Positions 6,738 through 36,100 of a stretch of 44,071 nucleotides of DNA are shown here, piece by piece. The position numbers and the translations under genes were made by a program. The first letter of the stretch is position 1, and every line of letters begins with the position of its first letter. This DNA comes from a virus: positions 1-44,071 of IMG/VR virus record IMGVR_UViG_3300003690_000019, one strand, 5' to 3'. The notes under the pieces were generated by a model, which saw only the letters and a program-made list of their open reading frames with translations, searched no databases and was not told the origin of the DNA.

Positions 6738-6764
6738 AATTAGACTCCTTATATTACGGGTCGT

Positions 6765-16490: not shown

Positions 16491-16521
16491 TTTACTTCCC
16501 TTACCAACAAGAGGAAAAATC

Positions 16522-17331
16522 ATGTACTCGATTCACTGGGACGGTTCTGTCCCTATCGTTGAATTCCCAGACGGTTATCGTCACCGCGTTAGCAATCTGC
16601 TGGCAACCGGCGATAGCAATACAAAGCTTGCAAAATCTGCTGGTAGTGGTTGGTTGACAAGGGGTTTGTCTCTTGCTCCTGCCAAGCTTGCTAGGTTGTC
16701 TAACATGTGTAATTTCGCCAGTCCCGAGTGTATTTTCTCCTGCTTGTTCAAGCAGGGGCAAGCATTCGGATTGTCGAGCATTAACCTGGCAAGAGTAGCT
16801 AGAACTACGCTATTCCAGCTAGAGCGCGAATGGTTTATTGAGCGGTTGGCGCGCGAGATTTTCAACGCTGAGAAGCTTGCCTATCGCGATAACTTGCAAT
16901 TGTGTTGCCGGTTGAATGTCTTCAGTGATTACCCATGGGAAGATACCGATCTGATTGAGCAATTCCCCAACATCATGTTTTACGACTATTCAAAGGATCC
17001 TAGTCGTATCGGTTGGCTCAGGCCCAACTATCACGTTACGTTTAGCCGATCCGAGATAAACGGCGACGACACAATGCAACTATTAGAGTCTGCTGAAAAT
17101 GTTGCTGTAGTGTTTGCTCACTCGGGCTTTGGTCCAAAGCAGAATCACCACTGGGAATTGCCTAAAACCTGGCGAGGATTCCCGGTTATCAATGGCGACC
17201 TAACAGACTTACGGTTCACCGATCCGCGCGGACGTAAGCTTGGTCGCGTTGTTGGGCTCAAGCTTAAAGTAGCTACTCGAGCGCGTCATGCTAGGGCTCT
17301 GGCTGGCGGATTCCCCGTGTTAGTAGGTTAG
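16522..17331 (+). CDS. GP88-family phage protein
   Basis: The protein has 269 residues from the ATG at 16522 (GAGG 7 bases upstream). It matches the mycobacteriophage-type 'gene product 88' family as I remember it: GLSLAPAKLAR (residues 48-58), a Cys motif NMCNFASPECIFSCLF (C63, C70, C74), SSINLARVARTTLF (85-98), then a helix ending FIERLAREIFNAEKLA. A later region reads CRLNVFSDYPWED and VAVVFAHSG. The biochemical function of this family is not established to my knowledge; the conserved cysteines suggest a metal or cluster site. It is early, downstream of the stem-loop cassette genes, and a strong hairpin follows it. Confidence 0.72.
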   Translation: MYSIHWDGSVPIVEFPDGYRHRVSNLLATGDSNTKLAKSAGSGWLTRGLSLAPAKLARLSNMCNFASPECIFSCLFKQGQAFGLSSINLARVARTTLFQLEREWFIERLAREIFNAEKLAYRDNLQLCCRLNVFSDYPWEDTDLIEQFPNIMFYDYSKDPSRIGWLRPNYHVTFSRSEINGDDTMQLLESAENVAVVFAHSGFGPKQNHHWELPKTWRGFPVINGDLTDLRFTDPRGRKLGRVVGLKLKVATRARHARALAGGFPVLVG

Positions 17332-18393: not shown

Positions 18394-18648
18394 ATGAAAG
18401 AGAAAGTCACAACAACCTGCCCCTGTGGAACCTCTCTGCCCGTGCAATTCACCGAGCAGGAGGGGTACGACGTATGCGATGTCGAGTGCCACGCCTGCGG
18501 TCGCCTGTCAACAGGTGGAAACGGAAGGACAGGAGAGGTGAACGGCTGGGTCACCGCCAAAGATGCAGCCCAATCTCAAGCATCATACGAGGCACTGCAG
18601 TTTGATTCCGATATGAACGAGTGGTATGGCCGAGGTAACTGGGCCTGA
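18394..18648 (+). CDS. 84-aa protein with zinc-ribbon-like N-terminus
   Basis: The ATG at 18394 follows GAGGAGG at 9 bases, just after the previous stop. It has CPCGTSLPV (about residues 9-17) and CHACGRLS (about 32-39), a CxCG...CxxCG ribbon, followed by a polar tail (DAAQSQASYEALQFDSDMNEWYGRG). A terminator follows within 20 bases, making this the last gene of the small-gene operon. Confidence 0.68.
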   Translation: MKEKVTTTCPCGTSLPVQFTEQEGYDVCDVECHACGRLSTGGNGRTGEVNGWVTAKDAAQSQASYEALQFDSDMNEWYGRGNWA

Positions 18649-18667
18649 CGGAGTTGAGTCTATCACT

Positions 18668-18700
18668 GGGGCTGGCCTGATATGGGCCAGCCCCCTTTTT
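18668..18700 (+). terminator. intrinsic terminator before the recombinase
   Basis: GGGGCTGGCC (18668-18677) pairs with GGCCAGCCCC (18685-18694), with loop TGATATG, and is followed by C and TTTTT. This strong Rho-independent terminator ends the small-gene operon. It also rules out the longer recombinase start at 18626, whose extension would be encoded by the hairpin. Confidence 0.9.
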
Positions 18701-18715
18701 ACAGGGAAACAGGAC

Positions 18716-20017
18716 ATGCGATTGATTGCATATGTGCGAGTGAGTACAGCTGAACAGGATAGTCTAGCAGCACAAGAGAGCAGTATTAGACGCTACTGTG
18801 AGGCTCTGGGACACGATCTCACAGACGTTTACAGTGACAAGGCCTCTGGATCAGGGATGACTGAGCGAGACGGTCTACGATCCCTGCTGGCACGCCTGGA
18901 AGGGGACGACGTTGACGGTGTGATCGTCACCAAGATCGACCGGTTGAGTAGATCGATGAAAGACTGGTCGACGTTGGTGGAGGAGTATTTCCAGAAGGGC
19001 GGATTGAACAAGAAACTCGTTGCTCTGGACATGAACATTGATACCAGTACTGCGACTGGCGAGCTATTCCTGAATCTGATGATCATGCTGAGTCAATGGG
19101 AACGTCGGATGATTGGCGAGCGTACGAGTGAGGCCTTGCAGGAAATGCGAGCTGAGGGCCGCCGCGTGGGCGGGCGGCCCCCCTATGGCTGGAAAGCAGG
19201 CGGCAAGGGCAAGGCGTGGTGGATCCCTCATCCAGCGGAGCGGCTACGGATTTACACGATGCGAGCTATCAGGGAGGAATTAGGTTACGGCAACAAGAGG
19301 ATAGCTGACTGGCTGAACGACCACGGGTTATTCCACAAGCTGGGTAAGAAATGGACCGAATATAAGGTTTGGTATGTCCGCCAGCGGTGTGAAAAGAGTA
19401 TGTCAGTCCCTCAACCTCCAGACTTCAAACTGTCGGACGTTGTTGACCAGACCAAGAGCCCTTACCTGCGTACGGATTTGATGAATAAGTGTACTATGCG
19501 CCTGTTTGACGCTGGTTTGCTGGATGAATACTTAACCACGGACCTTCACTACGAGCCGACGATTGAGGATCAGCTGGAGGTATATGAGACAGCCGGCGGC
19601 CACACGGCAGCCGTCTGGGGTGAGGGTGAGCAGATGATTGCCTTATGGTATTTCCCTGAGGAGGATCTACTGAGCTGGCGGAAATTAGCTCGGCGGGCCT
19701 CGGGCGGTATTCTTGATTACGGGGACTACATCCGCATGTTGAATCATATTGACTGGGAGCATCGCGAGGCGGGTTACCGGGTGGTCTGGGTGAACATCCG
19801 CGTGCGTCAGCTGGTTGGCGAGGTGAAGCGTCGGGGCTTGGACAACACTTCGGAGAACAGAGCGGCGATTCTATCATTGGTCGCGGCACAGGCCACGGGA
19901 GTGAGCGAGCTGGACGATGTAGAGCTGACGACTCATGGCAAGGGCGGATATTTACTCAAGAATCTGCTCAGCAATACCGATAAGACGGGTAGCGAAGAAC
20001 CAGCCCTGAAAAATTAA
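18716..20017 (+). CDS. serine recombinase with an unusual C-terminal domain
   Basis: The protein has 433 residues; the ATG at 18716 follows CAGGGAAACAGGA. Residues 1-145 form the resolvase/invertase catalytic domain: RLIAYVRVST with nucleophile Ser10, then DKASGSGMTERDGL, VIVTKIDRLSRS and the arm helix QWERRMIGERT. Residues about 160-225 (RVGGRPPYGW ... ELGYGNKRIADWLNDHG) form the 'recombinase' DNA-binding domain. Large serine recombinases usually continue with a Cys-rich zinc ribbon and coiled coil. Here the last 200 residues have no ribbon and instead a domain with VWGEGEQMIALWYFPEEDL and DYGDYIRMLNHIDWEHREAG that I cannot place. The product may integrate the phage or resolve DNA. No att site is evident. 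Confidence 0.85.
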   Translation: MRLIAYVRVSTAEQDSLAAQESSIRRYCEALGHDLTDVYSDKASGSGMTERDGLRSLLARLEGDDVDGVIVTKIDRLSRSMKDWSTLVEEYFQKGGLNKKLVALDMNIDTSTATGELFLNLMIMLSQWERRMIGERTSEALQEMRAEGRRVGGRPPYGWKAGGKGKAWWIPHPAERLRIYTMRAIREELGYGNKRIADWLNDHGLFHKLGKKWTEYKVWYVRQRCEKSMSVPQPPDFKLSDVVDQTKSPYLRTDLMNKCTMRLFDAGLLDEYLTTDLHYEPTIEDQLEVYETAGGHTAAVWGEGEQMIALWYFPEEDLLSWRKLARRASGGILDYGDYIRMLNHIDWEHREAGYRVVWVNIRVRQLVGEVKRRGLDNTSENRAAILSLVAAQATGVSELDDVELTTHGKGGYLLKNLLSNTDKTGSEEPALKN

Positions 20018-20018
20018 T

Positions 20019-20037
20019 TTGACACGTATGGTATAAT
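20019..20037 (+). promoter_or_regulatory. extended -10 promoter for the 97-aa gene
   Basis: TGGTATAAT (20029-20037) is a perfect extended -10 (TGnTATAAT). TTGACA (20019-20024) is present but only 7 bases away, too close to act as its -35, so the extended -10 probably carries the promoter. Transcription would begin about 20044, just before an inverted repeat. Confidence 0.6.
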
Positions 20038-20047
20038 GAAGATTGGC

Positions 20048-20070
20048 AAGTCGTTGGTAGTCAACGACTT
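20048..20070 (+). promoter_or_regulatory. inverted repeat at the transcription start (operator or leader hairpin)
   Basis: AAGTCGTTG (20048-20056) and CAACGACTT (20062-20070) form a perfect 9-bp inverted repeat with 5-base centre GTAGT. It begins about 11 bases after the -10. It could bind a dimeric repressor or fold at the 5' end of the mRNA, 24 bases before the ATG. Confidence 0.6.
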
Positions 20071-20093
20071 ACACCTCAACAAGGAGAAGACTC

Positions 20094-20387
20094 ATGAAAG
20101 ATTCAGAGAGGAAGTACTATCAGAGCCTATCTGATACGTGCATCGCGGCGATGACACTTTCCAAGGAGGAACCCGGTCGTTACGGCGGTCGCTACATCTT
20201 CAGGGACAGCAAGGAAGCTTACATCATCCACAAGGATGATGATCCCGAGGCTCTGACCGAGGAAGAGAAAGATATGGTCTGGGCTCACTGCCAGGCGGAT
20301 ACTACTCACGCCGTTGGGGGTTACAGCAAGTACTATCTCAACGAGGACGGTACGATCGACTGGGACTGGCTGGAGGAAAACTTCTAG
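20094..20387 (+). CDS. 97-aa acidic protein in its own transcription unit
   Basis: The ATG at 20094 follows AAGGAGAAGACTC. The product has a helical start (MKDSERKYYQSLSDTCIAAM), then GGRYIFRDSKEAYIIHKDDD, EEEKDMVWAHCQAD and an acidic end (EDGTIDWDWLEENF). No family is recognised. The gene has a private promoter with an inverted repeat and a strong terminator. This monocistronic, tightly bounded layout is unusual in this compact genome and suggests separate regulation, as for a superinfection or anti-host factor. That role is only an inference. Confidence 0.72.
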   Translation: MKDSERKYYQSLSDTCIAAMTLSKEEPGRYGGRYIFRDSKEAYIIHKDDDPEALTEEEKDMVWAHCQADTTHAVGGYSKYYLNEDGTIDWDWLEENF

Positions 20388-20405
20388 ACCAGCTGACATT
20401 CCTTA

Positions 20406-20435
20406 CCCCTTGCACGCGGTGTGCAAGGGGTTTTT
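20406..20435 (+). terminator. intrinsic terminator after the 97-aa gene
   Basis: CCCCTTGCAC (20406-20415), loop GCGGT, GTGCAAGGGG (20421-20430) and TTTTT form a textbook terminator 18 bases after the stop codon. It insulates the non-coding RNA unit downstream. Confidence 0.93.
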
Positions 20436-20447
20436 CTGCTTACTCAC

Positions 20448-20475
20448 TTGCACCCTTCCCTTGACCGGTTAAAAT
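20448..20475 (+). promoter_or_regulatory. candidate promoter of the structured RNA unit
   Basis: TTGCAC (20448-20453), a 16-base spacer and TAAAAT (20470-20475, five of six to consensus) lie 13 bases after the preceding terminator. The predicted start near 20482 precedes the first paired element of the RNA by 12 bases. The -35 is weak. Confidence 0.5.
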
Positions 20476-20481
20476 CAGGTC

Positions 20482-20768
20482 AGTCATCAGGCAGATAGTC
20501 CACCTGGCGGAAATGAAGCAACCCAGAGCGACAGCTCTAAAACAAAGCACCACCGCTGATGCGTCTCGGGTTGGTAACCGATGGGGAGACAGCGGGAGTC
20601 AGACCTAACGCATCTGGCTTGGACGACTATCACAGATCTGACTACAACCTATCATTCCTAGATCTTGATTAGGACCGATGCGTTCACACGTTAAAGATGT
20701 TGGTCGCTAACCGCGATCTTCTTCTTGTTGGGGCCGAACGACCTGGGCAACTGGGTCGTTCGGTTTTT
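20482..20768 (+). ncRNA. putative structured non-coding RNA, about 290 nt
   Basis: There is no convincing open frame here, and it is bounded by a promoter and a perfect terminator. Visible helices are: GATAGTC (20494-20500) with GACTATC (20625-20631), closing a domain; AGAGC-GACA-GCTCT (20525-20538); and CCGCTG (20553-20558) with CAGCGG (20590-20595), stacked on TCTC/GAGA and GGTT-GGT-AACC. A bulge in that arm, within GATGCGT (20558-20564), can pair with ACGCATC (20608-20614). A second GATGCGT at 20677-20683 competes for the same partner. CCTA/TAGG (20657-20673) and the terminator stem complete it. It does not match tRNA, tmRNA, RNase P or a group I intron that I can recognise. Confidence 0.55.
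20734..20768 (+). terminator. intrinsic terminator of the structured RNA
   Basis: CCGAACGACC (20734-20743), a 10-base loop, GGTCGTTCGG (20754-20763) and TTTTT. The strong stem gives the RNA a defined 3' end. Confidence 0.92.
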
Positions 20769-20821
20769 ATATAGAGCCCGACCGGTGATCCTCCTTCACA
20801 CGGTAACGGGTTGCTTCCTCT

Positions 20822-20861
20822 GGGGCGGCGGCTTCTTGCAGGCCGCCGCCTCGGGGTTTTT
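20822..20861 (+). terminator. second terminator before the replication operon
   Basis: GGGGCGGCGGC (20822-20832) pairs with GCCGCCGCCTC (20842-20852, one G-T pair). The stem is extended by CTCT/GGGG and followed by TTTTT. It lies about 55 bases after the previous terminator, with no gene between, so it backs it up. Confidence 0.82.
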
Positions 20862-20890
20862 GGAATCTCCAGAAAATGCTGAAGCTCGGC

Positions 20891-20918
20891 TTGACGTGAT
20901 CCGATATTTCCATAAGAT
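20891..20918 (+). promoter_or_regulatory. promoter of the replication/recombination operon
   Basis: TTGACG (20891-20896), a 16-base spacer and TAAGAT (20913-20918) lie 30 bases after the tandem terminators and 46 bases before the first gene. The -35 matches five of six bases. It is the likely start of the operon running to 27.8 kb. Confidence 0.6.
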
Positions 20919-20963
20919 CAGAAGCCTAACAAGAACGAGATCATGATCCACGGAGGTTAAATC

Positions 20964-21257
20964 ATGACATCAACACCAACATCTTTTCGCTCTAGTCACG
21001 GTGAATGGAGAGTACAGCCCGAGTTCATGGACCGACACTTCTTGGTTGTCTCTCCTTTGGACGTTGTCTACCGCCGCTACCCGACCTATTCTCAGGCGCG
21101 TTGTGCTGCCGAGAAGATGGCCAGTACCATGTCCGGCGAGGTTGAGAGAGATCTGGTTGACCCGGCCAAGTATCGAGATCCAGAGACACAGCGTCTGCTG
21201 GACCGGTTACTTGCTGATCTGCTCCGCATCGAGGGGGAAGAGCATGACCTCCCTTGA
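20964..21257 (+). CDS. 97-aa hypothetical protein, first in replication operon
   Basis: The ATG at 20964 follows GGAGG at 8 bases. The product is a small alpha/beta protein: HGEWRVQPEFMDRHFLVVSP, YRRYPTYSQARCAAEKMAST, then RDPETQRLLDRLLADLLRIE. The pattern resembles small phage proteins of mixed fold with no known function. Its end overlaps the start of the nuclease gene (21244), so the two are translationally coupled. Confidence 0.65.
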   Translation: MTSTPTSFRSSHGEWRVQPEFMDRHFLVVSPLDVVYRRYPTYSQARCAAEKMASTMSGEVERDLVDPAKYRDPETQRLLDRLLADLLRIEGEEHDLP

Positions 21258-22305
21258 AGTAGGACTGTCGATCATCGACTCTTCTACTGAGCTATCGGAG
21301 ATCGATAAGGTTAAGGCAGCTGTGCTGCTGACGGGCTATGACCAGATGTGGAGTGAGTTTGACTGGCAGGTCATAGACACTGAGCGTGAGGTCACGTTTG
21401 AGATACCGCAGACCGCCTGGAGTTACTCGGGTAAGATCGATACGCTGGTCACCGGCTATGGTGACCAGCTGGTGATGATTGAGCATAAGACCACTACTCA
21501 GGATCTCTCGGAGAAGACAGCGGTCTACTTCAGCAAGCTATCCTTTGACGAGCAGATTGGTCGTTACCATCTAGCTCAATGGCTGATGAGTGAGCCACTA
21601 AGTCAGACTATTTATGATTGCCTGCGCAAGATTACTATCCGCCCCAAGCGTGTGACTATTGAGCAGAAAGATGTGCTGCTTGCTGAAGGTACCTACCTTG
21701 GGCAGCCCCTCCAGGCGGCTGCCCTCATCCCTCCTGAAGAGATCGAGGCTCTTGGGACCGAAACCCCTGAACTGTACGAGATCCGCTGTCGTCAGGCTGT
21801 GCTGGGAGATCTGGACAAGCATTACGCCCGCTGTGGGAATATCCATCGCAGCACAGAACAGATGGTAGATACCCTCGGTGTCCTGCAGCAGATAGCAATC
21901 GATATCGATAATGCGATGGCCTACAACCACTGGTATCAGAACACCCAGAGTTGTAAGGCATTCAACAGTCCCTGCGAGTTCCTGCCTCTATGCATGGGTA
22001 TCTCGGACCCAGCCAACGATAACTGGGAGCCACGTACCGGGGGTAACCGGGATCCTCGCACACTATCGCACTCACGAGCAGGCTGCTTCCAGCTCTGCCG
22101 CAGGAAATACTATTGGAGATACGTTGAGGGTATTCAGAAAGTCGGACGAGCGTCCGACGCCCTCACGTTTGGCTCGGTGATTCATGAGGCTCTCGAGGCC
22201 TGGTGGCTCACCCAAACCAAGGAGAGCTGTAATGTCAACAGCAACACAGCCGGTGACACGGCAACAGGTGACCGACCTGTTGAAAACGGTCAAGATGACG
22301 GGTAG
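21244..22305 (+). CDS. RecB/Cas4-like PD-(D/E)XK nuclease with permuted domain order
   Basis: The protein has 353 residues; the ATG at 21244 follows GGGGGAAG. The core reads SGKIDTLVTGYGDQLVMIEHKTT with catalytic D66, E80 and K82, then FDEQIGRYHLAQWL. A Cys cluster of the iron-sulfur type follows (C237, C244, C250). In this family the N-terminus normally carries the S-x-S-R...C-x-R-x-YY-x-RY and G-x-x-H-x-x-LE motifs. Here that segment comes last: LSHSRAGCFQLCRRKYYWRY and FGSVIHEALEAWW (residues 274-321, with C281 or C285 as fourth cluster Cys and H314). The order is thus rotated. It is probably an exonuclease acting with the Sak4-like ATPase and SSB in recombination. The next gene starts inside it. 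Confidence 0.78.
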   Translation: MTSLEVGLSIIDSSTELSEIDKVKAAVLLTGYDQMWSEFDWQVIDTEREVTFEIPQTAWSYSGKIDTLVTGYGDQLVMIEHKTTTQDLSEKTAVYFSKLSFDEQIGRYHLAQWLMSEPLSQTIYDCLRKITIRPKRVTIEQKDVLLAEGTYLGQPLQAAALIPPEEIEALGTETPELYEIRCRQAVLGDLDKHYARCGNIHRSTEQMVDTLGVLQQIAIDIDNAMAYNHWYQNTQSCKAFNSPCEFLPLCMGISDPANDNWEPRTGGNRDPRTLSHSRAGCFQLCRRKYYWRYVEGIQKVGRASDALTFGSVIHEALEAWWLTQTKESCNVNSNTAGDTATGDRPVENGQDDG

Positions 22306-23059
22306 ACAACTACCTAGCAGGGTAGTGGTCTACGGTGTGGAAGGATCTGGGAAGACCAGCTTCCCTTCCAGCGCACCGTCTCCTCTGTACCTCATGTCTC
22401 GCGGTGAGACTGGTCTGGAAACCCTGATCGATGCCGGCCAGCTGGGAGATGTCCCGCACCTACCTCAGTTTGAGAGCTGGCTGGAGTTCCTCACCTGCAT
22501 CGACCAGTTGACCGAGCAGACCCATGAGTACAAGACGCTCGTGATCGATGCGGCCAACGGGTTTGAGCATCTCCTGTACGAGTATGTCTGCGAGACTGAG
22601 TTCGGTGGTAACTGGGGGCAAAAGGGGTTCGCCTCTTTCGGCCAGGGTTACTCGATCTCGGCCAGCCACTGGGAAGCCATGCTTGCCAAGCTGGATGTGC
22701 TGCGAGAAACCAAGAAGATGGGGATCATCCTGCTGGCTCACGCTAAGATCGCCACCTTCAAGAATCCCGCTGGTGAGGACTACGACCGCTTTACCCCAGA
22801 TATCCACAGACATCAGTGGGGATTGCTTCACAAATGGTCGGACATCGTCCTGTTTTTTGACTTTGTGACTGCCATTGATACGGACGGCTCACGGGCCAAG
22901 GGGAAGGGTGGCACTCAGCGGATTGCTCACTGTGAACGACGTGCATCATGGGATGCCAAGAATCGGCATGGTATGCCGGAAACATTTTCTCTCGGCACAT
23001 CGCCTCAAGAGGCATGGGCCAATTTCTTAACCGCTCTTGGCAAAGGACCGAAAGCATGA
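22232..23059 (+). CDS. Sak4-like RecA-family ATPase
   Basis: The protein has 275 residues; the ATG at 22232 follows AAGGAG within the previous gene. Walker A is GVEGSGKTS (residues 35-43). Walker B is KTLVIDAANGF with Asp106. A later GIILLAHAKI is the sensor-like strand of the RecA fold, and TPDIHRHQWGLLHKWSDIVLFF follows. This is the pattern of phage single-strand-annealing ATPases (Sak4 type), which load onto SSB-coated DNA. The operon neighbours, a RecB-like nuclease before and an SSB candidate after (ATGA overlap), fit a recombination module. Confidence 0.78.
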   Translation: MSTATQPVTRQQVTDLLKTVKMTGRQLPSRVVVYGVEGSGKTSFPSSAPSPLYLMSRGETGLETLIDAGQLGDVPHLPQFESWLEFLTCIDQLTEQTHEYKTLVIDAANGFEHLLYEYVCETEFGGNWGQKGFASFGQGYSISASHWEAMLAKLDVLRETKKMGIILLAHAKIATFKNPAGEDYDRFTPDIHRHQWGLLHKWSDIVLFFDFVTAIDTDGSRAKGKGGTQRIAHCERRASWDAKNRHGMPETFSLGTSPQEAWANFLTALGKGPKA

Positions 23060-23571
23060 ACGATTTCCAGAAACCTGACTACAAGGGTCTTTACATCTGC
23101 AGGATTGAGGATCAGGGGTTAACGCAGAACAGCAAGGGTACTCCGCAGGTCAAGCTGCGGTTCCAGATCCTTGCCAAGTGCAACACCGATGGCACTCGCG
23201 AGGTTATCCCTGACAACCAGTTCTCCAGCTGCTGGATGCCACTCACAGCCAAGGCCGTTGGCTGGGTGTCGGGCGCTCTGACGCAGATCGGGTTCACGGG
23301 TCCGCCCAGCGGGATCGACCTGGAGAGTCCTAACTGCTGTGATCTCAGGGGAAAGGAAGCTGAGTTCTTTGCTCAGGTTCAGGACGACGGTTTTATCCGC
23401 TGGAGTATCAATACTCCACGGGGGAGCAAGGCACCTGCCAAGCTCGACGACACTCGACGGATGGAGCTGGACGCGATGTTTGGCGACAGCTTCAAGAAGA
23501 GCGATGCAGCCACGACAACCACAACCCCGGTTGGTGGTAGCACGTTCTCCGTTGATGACAACGCCTTCTAG
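23056..23571 (+). CDS. putative single-stranded DNA-binding protein
   Basis: The protein has 171 residues and overlaps the ATPase stop as ATGA. The N-terminal 110 residues look like an OB-type beta fold (YKGLYICRIEDQGLTQNSKG, QVKLRFQILAK, FSSCWMPLTAKAVGWV, AEFFAQVQDDGFIRWSI). A flexible Thr-rich linker and an acidic end (FSVDDNAF) follow, like the protein-interaction tip of SSBs. Its place after a Sak4-like ATPase supports the call. The sequence alone is not decisive, and a nuclease-associated protein of similar size is the alternative. Confidence 0.58.
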   Translation: MNDFQKPDYKGLYICRIEDQGLTQNSKGTPQVKLRFQILAKCNTDGTREVIPDNQFSSCWMPLTAKAVGWVSGALTQIGFTGPPSGIDLESPNCCDLRGKEAEFFAQVQDDGFIRWSINTPRGSKAPAKLDDTRRMELDAMFGDSFKKSDAATTTTTPVGGSTFSVDDNAF

Positions 23572-23584
23572 GCGTTGGTTGTGG

Positions 23585-23643
23585 GGGGCGGGGAGTTTTC
23601 TGCACCAGACGCACAGGAGCGTTCTCCCCGTCCCTTACTTTTT
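23585..23643 (+). terminator. hairpin/terminator inside the replication operon
   Basis: GGGGCGGGGAG (23585-23595) pairs with CTCCCCGTCCC (23624-23634, one G-T pair), followed by TTACTTTTT. The loop is 28 bases. It lies after the SSB candidate and probably gives partial termination, so that recombination proteins are made in excess over distal genes. Confidence 0.65.
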
Positions 23644-23658
23644 ACAGGGAGAAGACTG

Positions 23659-23928
23659 ATGAACAGGATCCTCGACTGGATAGAGGAAGAAGCAGAGTTT
23701 TATGAGGAAGAGATCCTCTTGGCCGACGGCTTTGACGATGCACTTGTTGGAATTGCCACGCGCTTTGGTGGCCTGCGCCTGGCCGCTTACAACGTCGACC
23801 TGATGCTTGCGCAGCTTGTCGAGGATGGCTGCACACCGGTCGAGGCCAGGGAGTATTACGATTTCAATATCATTGGGGCATGGGTTGGTGAACTGACACC
23901 CATTTTTATTGAGGGGATGGAAGAATGA
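23659..23928 (+). CDS. 89-aa conserved-type phage protein
   Basis: The ATG at 23659 follows AGGGAGAAG. The sequence NRILDWIEEEAEFYEEEILL is followed by FDDALVGIATRFGGLRLAAYNVDLMLAQLVEDGCTPVEAREYYDFNIIGAWVGELTPIFI. The second part matches a small protein type I have seen in many phages (AYD-x-L-M ... EEY-FN-x-GAWVGE-TP). No biochemical role is known to me. The end overlaps the next ATG (ATGA). Confidence 0.72.
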   Translation: MNRILDWIEEEAEFYEEEILLADGFDDALVGIATRFGGLRLAAYNVDLMLAQLVEDGCTPVEAREYYDFNIIGAWVGELTPIFIEGMEE

Positions 23929-24413
23929 GCTGGCAGCCGAGGTACAATCCAAGACACTACAGTACGACATGTAACAGCGAGATGGCACGGCTGCAGGACT
24001 CAGTCGAGATGGCCTATCAGGGTGAACAGGTAGAGTGGCATAGGGGAGATCCTGAGATGAAACCTGAAAGCGACTATAACCGCTTTGAACGGCTGGCCCT
24101 GGCGGCCAAGCCACAGTTGGACCGCCTGATGGAGGAGGTCGGTGGTAGCGGCCATGCTGAGGCTCCCTTCTGTACCTGCAGCCGCTGCAGTCGCCGTCGC
24201 GCCTACCATGTGCTGCTCTCTAATCCATATGAGGATGAAGACGATCAGGAGGATAAGCCAGACTGGTTTGACCGCTGGCGGGATGAGGTTCACGACATAC
24301 CAACGGAGGGTAACGATGAAGACAGTGATCCATGTGAACCAGCACAAGATCCGCCAGAACATCAAGCAGGAGATCCTCCAGCCCCCCCTGACGGTGAAGA
24401 CCTACAAGACTAA
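23925..24413 (+). CDS. 162-aa hypothetical protein with overprinted acidic tail
   Basis: It starts at 23925 by ATGA overlap. The first 105 residues look folded: YSTTCNSEMARLQDSVEMAY, YNRFERLALAAKPQLDRLME, and a Cys cluster (FCTCSRCSRRRA) that may bind metal. After about residue 130 it becomes an Asp/Glu/Pro-rich tail (EDSDPCEPAQDPPEH ... PPDGEDLQD). The last 98 bases also encode, in another frame, the start of the next gene, and the tail composition is what that overlap produces. Confidence 0.62.
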   Translation: MSWQPRYNPRHYSTTCNSEMARLQDSVEMAYQGEQVEWHRGDPEMKPESDYNRFERLALAAKPQLDRLMEEVGGSGHAEAPFCTCSRCSRRRAYHVLLSNPYEDEDDQEDKPDWFDRWRDEVHDIPTEGNDEDSDPCEPAQDPPEHQAGDPPAPPDGEDLQD

Positions 24414-24558
24414 CGACTACTGTTCAGAAGCAGTTATCGTGGCTGCTGACGGTACCGAGGTGGCCAGGATCGTGTACCGACCCGACAAGCCGCTCAGCTG
24501 CGGTGCCAGATGTTGGATTGAAACAGAATGCGAGGTGCGTTGTGAAGGACTGGGGTGA
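24316..24558 (+). CDS. 80-aa phage protein with HVNQH motif
   Basis: The ATG at 24316 follows GGAGGG inside the previous gene. It starts MKTVIHVNQHKIRQNIK and contains PPLTVKTYKTNDYCSEAVIV, ARIVYRPDKPLSCGARCWIET. The block HVNQH-x-I ... PPLTVK ... V-Y-x-P-x-KPLSCGARVWIET is, from memory, a widespread small phage/mobile-element protein whose function is unknown. It is clearly the better conserved partner of the overlapping pair. Confidence 0.75.
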   Translation: MKTVIHVNQHKIRQNIKQEILQPPLTVKTYKTNDYCSEAVIVAADGTEVARIVYRPDKPLSCGARCWIETECEVRCEGLG

Positions 24559-24814
24559 CGGCAACGATCAGGCTGGCAAGCGTGATCCGGTTACTAGACC
24601 GGATCACTACGTGCAGGGTAGTATCGAGGTGCTCGACGCCATCCTCGGTCTGGAGCTTGACTACCTCTCGGGTAACGTGCTGAAGTACATCGCTCGGTTC
24701 AGATTCAAGAATGGCAGGGATGATCTGGCTAAAGCCCGCCAGTACATAACCCTGATGCTGGAGAATTATGACAAGCTCTACGGTAAGGACGCCGATGTAC
24801 GACACAATCCTTGA
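24542..24814 (+). CDS. DUF3310-type protein
   Basis: I prefer the GTG at 24542 (GAGG 6 bases upstream), giving 90 residues; an ATG at 24503 is also in frame but would deepen the overlap. The conserved block is RPDHYVQGSIEVLDAI ... LDYLSGNVLKYIARFRFKNG ... DLAKARQYITLMLENY, characteristic of DUF3310 proteins of phages. They have been linked to nucleotide metabolism only by context. It overlaps both neighbours. Confidence 0.82.
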   Translation: MKDWGDGNDQAGKRDPVTRPDHYVQGSIEVLDAILGLELDYLSGNVLKYIARFRFKNGRDDLAKARQYITLMLENYDKLYGKDADVRHNP

Positions 24815-26516
24815 GGTCTTCAAAGGGCGGGACGACATCCTCGCGATGCAGCCAGCAGGCGAAAACTTCCGACCGATTGAGCGTGGTCCGCTCTCGGTTG
24901 ATGAATATGTCAAGCAGCATATCGGCGGGGAAACATGCTACGGCTTCTACGTCATGCGACCGGACAACACGGTAACCTGCAGCTGTGTTGACTTTGACGA
25001 TCATGCAGATGACCCCGACCCAGACTGGCAGGACAAAGCTGACAAGTTCTATCAGCTCCTCCTTCAGTTGGGACTTGCGCCCCTAATGGAAGTCTCCGCA
25101 TCTGGGTCTGGGGCTCATCTCTGGCTACTGTTTGACAAACCGATCGAGGCCTGGAAGGTCCGGCAGTTCTGGCAGACTGCCGGACGCCGCATCGACTATG
25201 AGCCTCGCGAGATCTACCCTCGGCAGGACCAGTTACGTGGCAAGGGGCTCGGCAACCTGATCCGCCTGCCTTACTGGAATAAGTCTCGCTTTGTCGACCC
25301 CTTTGAGGACTGGCAGGAGATCCAGCTGGACATCATCCCGCGAGTAGATGTGGAAGAGTTTATCGATATCTGCCTCTCGATCGGTACCAACCTCAAGGAA
25401 CCACCCGCCAGCACGAGTAGTGTCTCAGAGCGTGTAGACAAGCTGCTGGCGATACCTAACAGTTTGCTGGCACGTCGATGGAGGGGTGATACCGACGGTC
25501 TTAGCGGGGACACCAGCCGCTCTGTAATAGCTTTCGCGATCTGCTGTGAACTTGTCTACCAGCATGTACCTACCGAGGAAATCTACTCGGCGTTGAACCG
25601 CTGGTGTGGGTTACATAGCTACTCCAAGCCTGACAGCTGGATGCAGCTCACTATCGAGAAGGCGTACCAGTCGGTGCATACTCGGGCGACCAAGCAGAAG
25701 AAACACCTGGCCCGCACCATTGCAACCTGCGCCGAGTTCTTCCTCAGTCGGCTGGGTAATACCCACCACTTTGCTACTGGGATTGTGCCGCTGGATTACG
25801 CCTTTGACGGTATTGCACCAGGTGAAGTCGGGATCATTGCAGCACGACCGGGTCACTGCAAGAGTGCCCTGGCCCTGCAGTGGCTCGACTACCAGTCACA
25901 ACTTGGTGTGCCGTGCCTGATGCTCAACGCTGAGATGTCAGGCTATGAGATTGGCCGGCGGATGGTAATGCGACTGGTCGGTGGCCAGGAAGAGGATTGG
26001 GTCAGCCATCGAGATGAGATCATGGCAAAGATCCAAGATTATTACGCCAACTGCAACCCGCCGCTGTTTGAGCCGGTCGGTACCATTGACGAGGTTGAGG
26101 ATAAGATCCGTCACTACGCTGAGCAGCATGCAGTCAAGCTGGTTGCCGTCGACTACCTGCAGCTATTGAGAAGCAGCACAGCCTCGGGGAGATATGAGAC
26201 AGTCACCGAGATCAGCCAGCGGATCAAGGGTGCAGCTCGCGACAACGACGTAGCAATCATTGCGTTGTGCCAGGTGTCACGCGAGGTCGAGCGCCGTGAT
26301 AAGCTGGAGTTCCAGGCCAGTGACCTCAGGGAGTCAGGGCAACTGGAGCAGGATGCCGACCTGATCGCCTTCGGCTGGTGGTGGGGCAGAAGCGGCAACG
26401 AGAAGAAAGATCAATCAGTCTACGAGATGCACATTGTTAAGCGACGTAACGGCCCTGTCCGAAAGAGCGTGGTCCGACTGAAGTTTGAGCCTGAGAAGCA
26501 GAGGTTTGTCTGGTGA
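24795..26516 (+). CDS. primase-helicase: AEP primase fused to DnaB-like helicase
   Basis: The protein has 573 residues; the ATG at 24795 follows AAGGA. Residues 1-180 carry an archaeo-eukaryotic primase fold: metal ligands in CVDFDDH (D66, D68), a histidine motif SGSGAHLWLLFDKP (H108) and LGNLIRLPYWNKSRFVDP. Residues about 205-300 form a helical linker. Residues 320-573 are a RecA-type DnaB helicase: IIAARPGHCKSALALQW (Walker A, about 347-363), LVAVDYLQLL (Walker B, 449-458), IIALCQVSREVERR and DLRESGQLEQDADLIAF. It would unwind DNA and prime at the phage fork. No DNA polymerase gene is present, so it must engage a host polymerase. Confidence 0.9.
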   Translation: MYDTILEVFKGRDDILAMQPAGENFRPIERGPLSVDEYVKQHIGGETCYGFYVMRPDNTVTCSCVDFDDHADDPDPDWQDKADKFYQLLLQLGLAPLMEVSASGSGAHLWLLFDKPIEAWKVRQFWQTAGRRIDYEPREIYPRQDQLRGKGLGNLIRLPYWNKSRFVDPFEDWQEIQLDIIPRVDVEEFIDICLSIGTNLKEPPASTSSVSERVDKLLAIPNSLLARRWRGDTDGLSGDTSRSVIAFAICCELVYQHVPTEEIYSALNRWCGLHSYSKPDSWMQLTIEKAYQSVHTRATKQKKHLARTIATCAEFFLSRLGNTHHFATGIVPLDYAFDGIAPGEVGIIAARPGHCKSALALQWLDYQSQLGVPCLMLNAEMSGYEIGRRMVMRLVGGQEEDWVSHRDEIMAKIQDYYANCNPPLFEPVGTIDEVEDKIRHYAEQHAVKLVAVDYLQLLRSSTASGRYETVTEISQRIKGAARDNDVAIIALCQVSREVERRDKLEFQASDLRESGQLEQDADLIAFGWWWGRSGNEKKDQSVYEMHIVKRRNGPVRKSVVRLKFEPEKQRFVW

Positions 26517-26519
26517 ATT

Positions 26520-26795
26520 ATGGACAGGGAAGTCCGAGATCGGCGTGCAGAAAAATCCAGCTGGAAAGATCTAGAGAGCTGGGCCGCTTACAATTGTAAC
26601 ACCGAGGTGGAAGCACAGCAGATCATGACTATACGCATACGCAGGGAATCCCTGATCATGCAGATGTCCTGGTCTGACCGCCAGCGAGAGAAGCGTGCTC
26701 CTCACCAGGCTCCAATTCCGTGGTTACCCCCAGCTCGAGTGAAGGTATCAACCAGTGGTAATGTAAAGAAGCTGACTGATGACACAAATGAGTAG
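26520..26795 (+). CDS. 91-aa basic hypothetical protein
   Basis: It starts 3 bases after the helicase stop and reads MDREVRDRRAEKSSWKDLES, then NTEVEAQQIMTIRIRRESLIMQMSW, ending in a Pro/Lys-rich tail. It appears helical and is rich in charged residues. No family is recognised, and the ribosome binding site is poor. The end overlaps the resolvase-like gene by 17 bases. Retained because it fills the operon gap without frame conflict. Confidence 0.55.
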   Translation: MDREVRDRRAEKSSWKDLESWAAYNCNTEVEAQQIMTIRIRRESLIMQMSWSDRQREKRAPHQAPIPWLPPARVKVSTSGNVKKLTDDTNE

Positions 26796-27114
26796 GAACA
26801 AGGGCAAGCGCGGTGAGCGCGAAGCTGCTGCTATTCTCAATGACCTCTTTGGCTGTTCTGCTCGCAGAAGCCAGCAGTACTGCGGCCAGGCCGGTGATGC
26901 CGACCTGGCCACTGACCTCGAGGGGGTGCATTTTGAGGTCAAGCGAGTTGAGAGGTTCCAGCTGCACGCCGCCCTGAGGCAGGCGTGCGAGGATGCCGGT
27001 GCTGATGATATACCGGTCGTCCTTCACAAGAGTAACCGCAACCCATGGGTTGTCGTGCTGAAGCTCGATGACCTACCCACCCTGGCTGAACGTATTACGG
27101 AGCAGACACAATGA
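26779..27114 (+). CDS. Hjc/VRR-NUC-like PD-(D/E)XK nuclease
   Basis: The protein has 111 residues; the start is ATG 26779 or the fourth codon ATG 26788. It has the compact resolvase-type nuclease order: KRGEREAAAIL (first Glu), GQAGDADLATDLEGVHFEVKRVERF (catalytic Asp, then E-x-K), then a helical and beta end (NPWVVVLKLDDL). Archaeal Hjc and phage resolvases of this class cleave Holliday junctions; the length fits. Position after the helicase suggests a role in resolving replication intermediates before packaging. Confidence 0.78.
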   Translation: MTQMSRNKGKRGEREAAAILNDLFGCSARRSQQYCGQAGDADLATDLEGVHFEVKRVERFQLHAALRQACEDAGADDIPVVLHKSNRNPWVVVLKLDDLPTLAERITEQTQ

Positions 27115-30101: not shown

Positions 30102-33100
30102 TTAACGACTGTCCCGCCTCCTACCTCTGAGGGATACTCTCTTGTTACGCCCGCCTGTGGTCTTGCCGATCTTCCTGAGCTGCTCATCCGACCAAGTCTG
30201 CACGGCGTGGCGATCCCTCATGATCAGCTTAACGTCCTTCTCGCTGAAGCCATTATCCCTCAGTATCCCAGATACCTGCCTTCGGTTCATCCCCAATTTC
30301 ATTGCTGCCTGAACGTCCAGATACATGTCATGGTAATAACCCTTAATCGCTGCATCTGACTGGGCCAGTTTGCTCTTCATGGCTACGTCACTCCCCGTCC
30401 GCTGGGAGTACGCCTCGCGTGATATGCGAGCCTTGGCGTCACGGAGGTTAGCCTTAAACCTGACTGCCTTGAACCGCATGCTCTGCTTGAGGTCGACCGT
30501 ACTATGCCTCGCCCCAGTGAACATGGCAAGCATCTCGTAGGGCGCACTGTAGGAGCGACCAGATTGCTCTGTGTAGCCACGCCACCCTCGGTAGATACGT
30601 CTGCCAGAAGTGTAAGTACCTGGCTTCCATGGATCCAAAAGATGGTTAGAGAACTTCCGCGCCTTCTCGGCAAATGTATCACTCTTGTACCAGATGGTGC
30701 CACCCTCTCGCTTGCTGTTGGTGAAAGCCTCTCTGGCCTTCTGAACCACCATGTCCTCACCTAGAATTGCATCCCCGCCCAGCTCACCCATCGCATCCCA
30801 CGCTCGCCTGAACAGCGGGACATCCTCATCATCAAACGCATTGAAGGCGTCCAGCAGTGCCAAGTGGGGGAACATGAAGGAGATGTCAAAGTGCTCAATG
30901 CCACCCTCACTATTCCTCCACATAAACTTGGTGCTATGCCGCGACCATGGTGCCACATGCCGGTCGAGTGCGTCTCGGTCGTCGTCATCAAAACCACCAA
31001 GCGCGACCAAGGAATTAATCGCAGCCTTCAGGCCAAATGACATACCAAGCATCCGCACACCAACCAACTGACCATGTCGTTTGAGCCGAGCATTACCGCT
31101 ATTCATGTCCTCTTTAGCTTGCTTCATCGTCATTGTCGTGGTACGGATCAACTCGCTGGCGAACGACACAAACGTACCCTGGAAGGGCCACACTCTTAAC
31201 TTGCGGATGCCCAGCGGTATCTTGTTCCAGGTCGGGTACTGGTTACTCACTCGGCGAGCAGCTTCCTCATCCAGTTGGGCATCTGTCCAGTCAGGGAAAG
31301 CTTCCTTGAGCATCTCACGATTGGAGATGAAGCCAACCATCTTGGGGATCTCATCCATCGCCTGGTAGATCGTACCCAGTCCCTTGTAGACCTTCCCGCC
31401 CCGCTGACGCAACTTTCGCAACACCTTCCCGGCAAGCTCCTCTGCCTGCTCCTCGCGACCAAACACATACGCATCAAACTCTGCATCCCACGCTTCCTTA
31501 ATAAGGCTCGTCATCTCGCGTGCCTGACTCTGACCGAGTACCCCGAGCTTGACCATCTTATTGACAAACTCTCTGGCCATTTCATGTGTGGGACCAGTCC
31601 GATCAAACTTGCCTGATGCAAGGTCCGGCTGCATATGCAACCAGCCATACTTCATTGCCTGCCGCCAGTTCTTGTGGCCCGTATGACCATTGATAACTGC
31701 AAAGCTCACGTTGGACACAAAGTTACGGATAGTCGTTACCATGGACATGACCGTCTTGGCAGCCTTGGCATGGCCGACACCGTTGAACCAGATCTTCGCC
31801 CAAGTTGGTAACTCTCCACCCTTACCAAATAGATCCTTCTCAGCTGCCAGGAATGACCGTGATACCCACCAACCATTAATATCGCCCCACTCTTCGCCCT
31901 TCAGTTGCTCGGGTGTCTCAGGAGTCTTTGTCTCACTAAGCATGTCATCCGGCAAGGCAACTCGCAGGGCGCTGAGGAACTCATGCTTGGCCAGCATGTT
32001 AGACATCTTGTTGATGCTCTTGACGTAGGCTGTTCCGACATCCTTGTACTCACCGTAAAGCGACCGGATAGCCTCATCGATATCCTTGCGATGCTTGAGG
32101 ATGCCATGGTTGGCACGCACGGTAGCATCACCCCTCTCACCCTCACCAATTTTCTCAATGCGCCGAATGAGAACCTCCACTTCCGTTTCAAGCTCCTTGT
32201 CTGTGAGGTCAGTTGTGTTCTCCTCAACAATCTGATCCACCATCACACTATCCAGACCCTGAGACAGGGTGTCTCGTACGCGGGCCTTACGGTGCTGCTT
32301 GATCTGGTTATCAACAATCTTGGCGGCACGACGACGCTTGCCTGCCTCCGTCTTGATCTTGCCTTTTGCGACAGCCTCTTTAATCTCCTCGTTCTCAGCG
32401 ACCTCCTTTTCAATCGCAGCATCACGCTCAGCCTTGGTCGGCTTCCACTTCTGCTGCTCTGCAACTGCATCCACCAGCTCCTGATCTACCTGTGACTCTT
32501 CAAGGGTCGTGAGCTTGGACCCCTCACCATCGCGAGCACGCCGCTTGATGTCATCCTTGATCTTCTTGGTAACCTTCTTGCGACGACGACGGCGATGACG
32601 GTCCTGTATAACCACCTTGGCTCTGGCTATCACCTTCGGTTGCTTGCGTACCTTCTTGGCCCAATTGGGATCATCCGCCCCTTGATAGCTGCGGTGCAGG
32701 TAAGCTTGCATGTTCTCATCAAAGACCAGTTCCATCTCCTCGGTGAGAATGTCAGCGTCAATAAGACGCTGACTCATGATCGCGATATGTTCGCGGATAG
32801 CTTCCACCGCTGCAGCAACATCCGCGTCAAGTGTTGTACGCAGCACAGGGTCGGAGAGGGCTTCAAATAGCTCCAGTTTCTTGGCGGGCGAGAGCTTGTG
32901 GAGTGGTGTTCCATCGTTAGCCTCCCGTACCGCCCGCAGGAAATCTTCGTAGCGATTTCTTGCCTCGTTAAGATCCGCAGCGACCGTCGCAATCATGCGG
33001 TCATAAGCTGCCTTCCCCATCTTCCCGATCAGACCAGCAGATGAAAGGTACTTTTTCCAAAATGCTTTAACGGTTTCCTTGGCCCAGTCCAATCCTCGTT

Positions 33101-36100
33101 TGATGGCTCCGGTCACTGGCCCCAGATCAAACATGACGACTGGCAAGACACTGGCCTGCGTCGGTGGGCGTTTGAGATCCTTGTGTCCTTCAGCTGCAAC
33201 ATCTGTGACCTGGTCACCCTTACCAGTGGCGATCAGTGCTTCCAGTATCGTTCGGTGGGAGGGTAGTTCATCCCTGCGACCTGCGCGGATATCCTTCTCG
33301 TAGTCAGCCTCTGACATCTGTGCAGCACGCCGCATGAAGAGGTCCATGGTGCTCTGGCCAGTGGCGGACTTCTCGTTGAACCCGTAGTGCTCCACATGGA
33401 AGCTGCCTCGTACATTACCGTCGTTCTCCCAGACGACACCAGTCAGGCCATCGAGGCTGATAAGGCGGTTATTCTCCTTATCAAAGATGGCACCCTCCAT
33501 GGCATCTTCTATACCAGGGTTATCATCCTCGAGAACATCCAGCTCGTCTCGCATCTCTTTCTCAAGACCACCTTCATCCACCCACTCTTTAGCCAGTTTC
33601 TTGGCATTCTTAACCGCCTCCTCATCCGTGCGGCGGTACTTCCTGCGTGTCTCACGCCGCTCGAGATCCTTCTCCGCCTGCTCTTGGTCAGGCATAGCCT
33701 CCATCGCAACGTCCGGCTTGTCGGGCTTCTCGGTAGGCTTCTCCTCAGCCTCACCAATGATCTCCGCTGCAGCGGGGGGAGCGGGTGCTTCCTCTGCCTC
33801 TGCCACCGCCTCTACGGGCGGTGGCTTGGTGACTTCAGCAGCAGCCTCACGACCTCGAGCCAAGCCCTCATTGAAGGCATCCCGCTCAGCTCTCGGACGG
33901 GGAAGATCTGCAGAGGAAACGGTTTCTCCAGCAAGACCCATCTCGTAGCCATTACGGAAGAACTGTCGAGCATTATTTAAGCGGTCTTCTGCTGACATGT
34001 GACCCACGCCCACAGCACCCTGCTCCGTTGTTTCTTCCTTTGTAATTTCATATTCATCCGCCAACCGCTCAACAGACCAGTTGCGATCAAATATCTCATC
34101 AGCAGTAGGAGCTTCCTCTGCCACCGCCTCTACGGGCGGTGGCTTGGTGACTTCAGCGGTGTCTGCAGGAGAACGGACAACGGAATCCTCATTCAGGATT
34201 ACTGTTCCAATATCGCTATCAGAAGAAAATGAGATGATGTCATATCCAGCAGCCTTGGCCTTATCGATAGCTAGATTAACCACATCGACCGCAGTCTCAC
34301 CCTTCCTTATTGCCGCAAGTATATTGCTCGATGGGGGTCGCCTCCTACCAATCAGTTTCCAGAAGCCAGGATCCTCCTGGTACAGTATCTTTGCATCCGG
34401 TTTGGCTTCAATCCTCTCAATAGAAGGTCCATACATCCTCGCAGACCCTCGCCTCCTTGCGGCGAAAGTCAGCCCCTTGGCGGATTCAAATGGCTCATCA
34501 ATCCTACGAGCATCACCTGGCGTGGTACCCCGATAGAAAATTCGGGGTTCTTCCTTCTCCTCTTCTCGTGCCGCTTCCACCACTGGTGCAACTGGCTCAG
34601 CAGCTTCAGCCACAGCCTTAAGACCAAGGTGATCGATAATAGCCTTCCTCAGTACAGCTTTCTTCTTACCCTTAACACCCTTGATGCCAAGCTCTGTGAT
34701 CAGGTTATGCAAATTCTTACCCGTCATCCTGTCCACCTGTTCAAGTGTGACAGGAGGTGCAGGCGGCTGTACTTCAGGCTCAGGGGCCACAGGAGCCTCT
34801 GTAGGCTCCTGTGGGGGCTCTCGGCCTATATCAGGTACTCCCTCACCCTCAACGCGGGGAGGGGCTACAGGAGCCTCCATGACCTCACTGATCTTCCTGC
34901 GGATAGCGGGCTCACTCAGGAAACCAAGACGGCGGGCGACATACTGGGAGTCCATACCGGCACGATCGACCGCGTAGTCCAGCAGCTCTGTCCGGCTCAT
35001 CTCCTCAAGTGTGGGGACCGGGGAAGGTTCTGCTTGCGGCACAGGTTGGGGGGGAGCTACCTCCTGCTCTCGACTCGGATGGACAAACGTCACATCCTGC
35101 TGAGCGTTGACCGTTAACTGCTCACCACTCGGCAGCTCCACGTCATAGTTTCCACCAGGGCGCTGGGCGATCACCGTGCCGGTCGCTTCGGGGCGACCGG
35201 CTGCATCGTCTTCACCAATATCCACTACATCGCCAATGTTCAGCTCGCTGGGGCCACGGTCAACTTCCGCACGACCCTGCTGACGCTGGATCTCTCTTAC
35301 AAAGGCTTCTCTCGATCCCAGTCCGCCAAGCTTACTCCCCAAGCGTGTGCCGTCAGGAAGGATGACAGCCGATGCTTTACTGCGGCTGGGGTTTTTTATG
35401 AACTCGTTCAGCTGACCCTCCAGGTCAGCATCCACCGCCGTCTCAAAGAGAATATCACTGACAACCCGCTTCTGTAGATCCCCTTCTGTTTCATCTTCAC
35501 GCTGGGTGAAGACATCCATCGCCTCCCAGTCAGCGGCACGTTGGATGGTGTCACGGTACTCCTGACGACTAGGCTCCTTGGCAGCATCCTTCGCTCGGGC
35601 TTCCCGCTCAGCAATGCCCCTCTCTTGCTCAGCCAAAGCCCGATCCAGCAGGAACTGCTCCTCTTTCTCGTCTTCCCTATCGCGTGCATCCTGGTTGGCT
35701 TCTGCAAAGTCCTGCACGCGCTTCTCTTCAGCAGCCCTCATCTCCTCGGCGTAGAGTTCTATCTGGGCAATCGTCTTGCGGGACATGTGGTCCTGCACAC
35801 CCTCAATAACACTCGCAGGGCCAGTCATGAATATCATGGCCAAAGCCACTTCCCTAAACTCGTCCTTGAACTCCTCTAGCTCCCTCTTGGAATCAAAAGT
35901 GTTAATTCCCTCCAACCTCTGAGCGACCTGCTCGGCAACAGTGCCGGTAACACTCTGTAACATCTCTACCGTGATCTCACCCTCGTACCGAGCCCCGGCG
36001 CGGATAGCAGAGTGGGGAATACTGCGAGCAATTCCCTCGCCGAGCTTGCCTCGCATGCTGCCTGGTAACAGGAGCTTGTACTGAAGGTACTCAAGAGATC

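Follow-up and report, generated by a model that had tools for sequence, protein, structure and literature searches.

A probable circularly permuted RecB/Cas4-like nuclease beside a Sak4-like gene in a viral genome, and its relatives in three cyclic orders

The nuclease gene and its motif order

The stretch of DNA analysed here, referred to below as the window, comprises the 44,071 nucleotides of IMG/VR virus record IMGVR_UViG_3300003690_000019. It carries a gene for a predicted RecB/Cas4-like (PDDEXK_1) exonuclease whose conserved blocks stand in a rotated order. Three blocks were distinguished in this protein and its relatives: N (S-x-S..C..G-x-x-x-H), A (helices and GKID) and C (E-x-K followed by three cysteines), and their order was read for each locus. 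The canonical order is N-A-C (NAC); that of the window protein is A-C-N (ACN). The gene and its parts are as follows.

21244-22305, plus strand: predicted circularly permuted RecB/Cas4-like (PDDEXK_1) exonuclease, 353 residues, order A-C-N
21244-21468, plus strand: A block, residues 1-75, with the helices LEVGLSII and KVKAAVLLTGY, the invariant E47 and RecB motif II (G63-K64-I65-D66, 21430-21441)
21469-21999, plus strand: C block, residues 76-252, with motif III (E80-H81-K82, 21481-21489), Q104xxxY108 (21553-21567), C237 (21952-21954), C244 (21973-21975) and C250 (21991-21993)
22000-22056, plus strand: linker, residues 253-271, which bridges the two canonical termini (C to N) and lies inside the rotation plateau (252-276) described below
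22057-22221, plus strand: N block, residues 272-326, the opening of the protein in canonical order, with S277, C285 (22096-22098), F309-G310, the motif I histidine H314 (22183-22185) and E318
22222-22302, plus strand: C-terminal tail, residues 327-353, with low predicted local distance difference test (pLDDT) scores and with most of its length shared, in a different frame, with the beginning of the Sak4 gene

The N block reads L274-SHSR...C285-RRKYYWRY...FG310..H314EALE, and along the protein the motifs run II (GKID66), III (E80HK82), Q104xxxY108, C237/C244/C250 and N block (S277, C285, G310, H314). A first-pass annotation made from the sequence alone had reported these motif positions, with every part present once and the order rotated, and they proved correct. 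It had also remarked that the fourth cluster cysteine, C285, now adjoins the other three, and all four do lie within residues 237-285.

The open reading frame (ORF) starts at ATG 21244, where it overlaps the stop of the preceding ORF (20964-21257). Extension of the stop-to-stop frame upstream of this ATG revealed no nuclease block. A separate N block upstream, which the annotation had named as evidence against its proposal, was looked for by comparing block profiles with the six-frame ORFs of the whole window; no second N block was found upstream or in other frames, and each block matched only 21244-22305, once. The N block matched a profile of the permuted family, which included the window sequence, with 102 bits (independent E-value 1e-29), and a profile made from canonical-order relatives only with 47 bits.

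The protein matched Pfam PF12705 PDDEXK_1 (E 1.4e-12, 48.5 bits against a cut-off of 22), which places it in that family, and PHROG 1218 'exonuclease' (E 5e-25, 89.4 bits), in both cases in two separate stretches. The catalytic residue set of PF12705 is complete (H314, D66, E80/K82, Q104/Y108), but the linear order I-II-III-QxxxY is replaced by II-III-QxxxY-I in the window and by III-QxxxY-I-II in a second permuted form, C-N-A (CNA). Because of this non-canonical order we class the window protein as a circularly permuted homologue and not as a canonical PF12705 member. It had no NCBIfam match of any kind, and so does not count as a CRISPR Cas4 (TIGR00372).

Every rotation of the window protein was scored against a canonical-only profile built from 68 canonical-order relatives. 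The best single stretch scored 151.9 bits in the native order and 204.9 bits after rotation, when it covered profile positions 2-303 in one stretch. All cuts at residues 252-276 scored no more than 5 bits below this maximum, and the median rotation scored 149.8 bits. In the same scan the canonical controls L053, L054 and L061 scored highest unrotated, and the C-N-A proteins scored highest when cut near residue 210. Rotation at residue 262 merged the two stretches of the Pfam PDDEXK_1 match into one (48.5 to 52.2 bits), as it did those of the PHROG 1218 match (89.4 to 93.9 bits). Hidden Markov model alignment after rotation, as proposed in the first-pass annotation, thus turned two partial matches into one full-length match.

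Relatives, conservation and predicted structure

A tblastn search of annotated phages returned two full-length matches with the same order, the exonucleases of the Tunturiibacter phages Tunturi_1 and Tunturi_2 (the latter XOB77130.1), which are isolates from an acidobacterium host. Many more same-order relatives, also full length, were found on IMG/VR contigs by alignment-based scans; single-sequence queries (P0001 and the Tunturi_2 protein) gave no match against viral contigs, and alignments were needed. The first scan of genome contigs returned no relative, and the second returned one ACN copy in a Pirellulales metagenome-assembled genome (MAG), a single copy in canonical order and eight loci whose matches fell mostly in the N block. 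In the Pirellulales homologue (L208, 4828-6210) the active site is decayed, with GRYGG for GKID and FK for E-x-K, and this copy is perhaps dead or repurposed. A separate observation concerns the Tunturi phages: at ~6740-7010 of the Tunturi_2 locus (L001), DNA identity to the Tunturi_1 locus (L002) is ~65-80%, with flanks mostly at 90-100%, and this stretch spans the closing portion of the C block together with the N block, a local exchange in a near-identical gene.

Three cyclic orders were present among about 200 loci: NAC at 99, ACN at 82 and CNA at 20, with seven further loci partial or unresolved; these raw counts include some contigs twice. After clustering at 90%, the non-redundant set held 71 NAC, 44 ACN and 12 CNA sequences. 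No non-cyclic order was seen among the ~200 loci. The C-N-A proteins (L058 5977-7062, L064 5998-7041, L056 5998-7077 and kin) open with M-K-V-Y-L-W-E-T-K and close with ..L-G-G-K/R-V-D-A-I-V and a tail. As they start at the E-x-K strand and end after G-K/R-V-D, the chain is cut in the loop that connects the two catalytic strands, and its catalytic Asp and Glu-x-Lys stand far apart, one at either end. The finding is therefore wider than the first-pass annotation suggested: there is a second permutation with a different cut, and the order of the window protein arose more than once.

Key residues were retained throughout the permuted forms. D66, (E/D)80, K82, Q104, Y108, C237, C244, C250, C285 and H314 were kept in all 44 non-redundant ACN rows, and the same ten positions in all 12 CNA rows wherever the sequence covers them. 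The N block was full length, with S277, C285, G310 and H314, in 44/44 ACN rows. In the moved block, the ratio of non-synonymous to synonymous substitution rates (dN/dS) was ~0.03-0.06 for the majority of comparable ACN pairs and 0.015-0.05 for the majority of CNA pairs. These sequence patterns suggest that the function of the permuted nuclease has probably been kept. The protein has the four conserved cysteines of the 'iron-staple' (C237, C244, C250, C285) and may bind a [4Fe-4S] or [2Fe-2S] iron-sulfur (Fe-S) cluster. The layout usual for such nucleases (PMC4176176), with one cysteine towards the N-terminal end and the other three towards the C-terminal end, is absent, as all four fall in residues 237-285.

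The AlphaFold2 model, made with 33 sequences of the window's clade, had a mean pLDDT of 88.7 and a predicted template modelling score (pTM) of 0.83, and the ten-residue blocks covering 271-320 were at 87-97. VIA-align matched residues 1-254 to the nuclease domains of AddA, AdnA and ACE1, starting after their N-block (Z 8-9.5; for example, CtACE1 77-267 and AdnA 840-1038); this search is sequential and hardly probes the moved block. A PDB profile match to Cas4 4r5q was weak, with both blocks in swapped order. Foldseek, also a sequential search, found nothing in the PDB at E <= 0.001, which is to be expected of a permuted chain. The predicted viral protein A0A6J5NSY1 matched the model over 351 columns (TM score 0.78) and is probably another same-order member. 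The prediction is confident across residues 272-320, which agrees with the view that residues 274-321 complete a restriction-endonuclease-like nuclease fold; their packing into the fold is the likely arrangement.

The circular permutation proposed in the first-pass annotation is borne out by the rotation scan, the same-order relatives, the conserved key residues and the purifying selection on the N block. We consider it very probable that the window gene encodes a circularly permuted RecB/Cas4-like nuclease that is active and part of a recombination module with Sak4 and a single-stranded DNA-binding protein (SSB). An alternative that we judge unlikely is a domain-swapped dimer or oligomer, in which each subunit would lend its C-terminal N block to complete a neighbour's active site. 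A ring-shaped decamer is known for the canonical Cas4 SSO0001 (PMC4176176), and sequence cannot separate a swap from intrachain packing. However, the single-chain model is confident (pTM 0.83), and intrachain closure is the simpler arrangement because a linker of ~20 residues follows C250.

Several points weigh against an active, permuted nuclease. The C-N-A form was modelled poorly (pLDDT 52), and the Z scores of 8-9.5 are only just above the level that VIA-align calls common. Residues 274-321 would sit where canonical N-blocks sit, but a domain-swapped oligomer would look identical in sequence, and the exonuclease activity and polarity of the window protein are presumed. Metagenomic contigs make up most of the relatives. 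The N block was under weaker constraint in two pairs (dN/dS 0.24 for L080/L081, with very few changes, and 0.23 for L056/L065), and the active-site residues lost from the ACN homologue in the Pirellulales MAG indicate that some copies may be inactive.

Order changes and remaining alternatives

Unrooted trees were built on blocks placed in register, one of 127 rows and a careful one of 51 rows, on which approximately unbiased (AU) tests were run. In both trees ACN occurred in four places (a clade holding both the window protein and the Tunturi proteins; a second clade of L083 and kin; L080; L202) and CNA in one, and the 5-95% range of the bootstrap trees was 4-4 changes for ACN. The canonical order is presumably ancestral, because it is present in the wider RecB family. 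These comparisons of sequences support well at least four order changes, with five as the best estimate.

The position of the cut in the canonical profile also differed, at ~53 in the two large ACN clades, ~70 in L080 and L202 and ~131 in CNA, which agrees with separate events. L080 and L202 keep an L-x-A-A-L helix at the C-terminus. The ACN genes of L080 (332-1414), L081 (5986-7068) and L202 (3059-4075) are nested among canonical relatives and have the later cut, which suggests separate origins. L080 and L081 are two nearly identical contigs and L202 is one contig; a scan for a second contig supporting L202 returned L202 only.

It is very unlikely, in our view, that all permuted forms stem from one ancient rotation followed by reversions and not from repeated independent rotations. 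The trees are unrooted and a union of the two large ACN clades was not rejected (AU p 0.21), but a single ACN clade was rejected (p 3e-8), as was L080 together with L202 (p 0.009), the three cut sites differ and CNA forms a clade of its own. On balance we favour a reading in which the Sak4-adjoining nuclease of tailed phages is a natural hotspot of circular permutation: three cyclic orders, at least five independent rotations and three cut sites, one of them between catalytic strands. The Fe-S cluster at the termini perhaps gives tolerance of new ends, and recurrent duplication perhaps generates the rotations.

Rotations of this kind usually arise when a gene is duplicated in tandem and its outer parts are then lost. 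The first-pass annotation had named this route, with the outer halves lost, and it is plausible but unproven for the permutation described here. No duplicated intermediates (N at both ends, N-A-C-N or similar, or tandem copies) were found in the six-frame ORFs of all loci, and the sole extra ORF match was a C-block fragment in L130.

Decay after a tandem duplication could also leave a piece such as the C-terminal block, whose position is the 3' end of the ORF, where it extends into the Sak4 gene that overlaps it. The block would then be a dead remnant or an unrelated fusion (e.g., the opening part of a second nuclease gene that was lost), with the remainder of the protein degenerate or differently working. 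Against this stand the full-length N block with its key residues in 44/44 ACN rows, its dN/dS of ~0.03-0.06 in most comparable ACN pairs, the lack of any other copy in these loci and the high confidence with which the block was modelled; we give this explanation even less credence than a single ancient rotation. An assembly or frame artefact has a negligible chance of explaining the rotated order: most relatives come from metagenome assemblies and L202 is a single contig, but the isolates Tunturi_1 and Tunturi_2 have the same order within one ORF, which refutes an artefact for the window's form, and dozens of independent contigs agree, with no duplicated parts and with flanking genes unchanged.

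Genomic setting, proposed working and comparison with known systems

The genes around the nuclease gene include the following.

22232-23059, plus strand: Sak4-like RecA-fold single-stranded DNA annealing protein (AAA_24; PHROG 124), directly downstream of the nuclease gene with a 74-nucleotide overlap
23056-23571, plus strand: small protein at the position of the annotated SSB of the Tunturi phages, with no profile match; relatives lie downstream in most loci
20964-21257, plus strand: small upstream ORF of 97 residues, function unknown, whose end overlaps the nuclease start
18626-20017: serine integrase
24768-26516, plus strand: primase-helicase, with an AEP-TOTE (archaeo-eukaryotic-type primase) domain fused to a DnaB-like helicase

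The terminase and head genes lie on the strand opposite to the nuclease gene. Sak4 was directly downstream of the nuclease in 44/44 ACN, 70/71 NAC and 10/12 CNA loci, and the permuted forms therefore hold the place of the canonical gene. Based on the profile match and the adjoining Sak4, the window protein belongs with the Sak4-associated phage exonucleases (PHROG 1218), exonuclease activity being predicted. An Rfam scan of 19500-24500 and a tRNA scan of the window were empty, and no CRISPR or Argonaute genes were recognised among the window genes scanned.

Other features of the window were a second small PDDEXK protein in the replication module (26779-27114, plus strand; PF24608 PDDEXK_15; PHROG 244, RusA-like resolvase), a 'Gene product 88' family protein of unknown function (16516-17331, plus strand; PF17338, E 1.4e-28) and two very long minus-strand ORFs, 30102-37208 (2368 residues) and 38862-43976 (1704 residues), the latter without a PHROG match.

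In canonical Cas4, a single Fe-S cluster is held by one cysteine from the N-terminal part of the chain and three from the C-terminal part (PMC4176176). This shared cluster puts the canonical termini close together, so joining them by a linker and opening the chain elsewhere should spare the fold and active site. In the window protein a linker of ~20 residues would join the canonical N- and C-termini, and the chain would have its new ends beyond the N-terminal helical block. Each motif residue would then be back in its usual spatial place and the enzyme would work like its canonical relatives, resecting DNA to single strands that SSB and Sak4 would anneal in phage recombination and replication. 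Annealing by the Sak4 of phage HK620 is stimulated by its cognate SSB (PMC5928155).

The literature searched held no mention of this nuclease family being circularly permuted; it did not include the 2012 PD-(D/E)XK survey (PMC3424549, doi 10.1093/nar/gks382). Permutation is not mentioned in Cas4 phylogenomics (PMC5704561), Kosinski 2005 (PMC1189080) or the Cas4 structure paper (PMC4176176), and two recent circular-permutation papers do not mention nucleases. The rotated order went unnoticed in the records examined because linear profiles see two fragments and annotation names the gene plainly ('exonuclease' in the Tunturi phages).

Natural circular permutations have usually been described singly, each linking distant families. 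In the present case one enzyme occurs in canonical and in permuted forms at a shared operon position, and the enzyme appears to have been cut and rejoined several times in evolution with its catalytic residues retained. Close relatives lie on both sides of a change, with L080 or L202 set among canonical kin, so that a small phage enzyme makes it possible to test how permutation comes about, what it costs and whether it can be reversed. Whether a PD-(D/E)XK active site can be assembled from two far chain ends has a natural test case in the C-N-A form, and the cuts seen in the permuted forms are ready-made sites for designing split or switchable nucleases.

Among known systems, the phage 'Cas4 family' or RecB-like exonucleases (PF12705; PHROG 1218) resemble the window protein in their RecB motifs, four cysteines and Sak4 adjacency. 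They differ in having the canonical order, whereas the permuted forms have the N block at the C-terminus (ACN) or a cut between motifs II and III (CNA). CRISPR Cas4 (Pcal_0546, SSO0001, SSO1391) and the Argonaute-associated ACE1 share the RecB-like core, with the motif I His, motif II Asp, motif III Glu-x-Lys, QhxxY and four cysteines. ACE1 is a structural match to window residues 1-254, and CRISPR Cas4 has one N-terminal and three C-terminal cysteines in place of four within residues 237-285. The nuclease domains of AddA, AdnA and RecB gave the best VIA-align Z scores (8-9.5), over window residues 1-252; these domains are helicase-fused and canonical in order, and the window N block was left unaligned in the sequential search. 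A precedent is given by the circularly permuted GTPases cpRAS and YRG, an enzyme family whose motifs are found naturally in several cyclic orders (PMC2430557). Their fold is unrelated, and their permutants occur in different protein types, whereas the three orders described here occur at one phage operon position.
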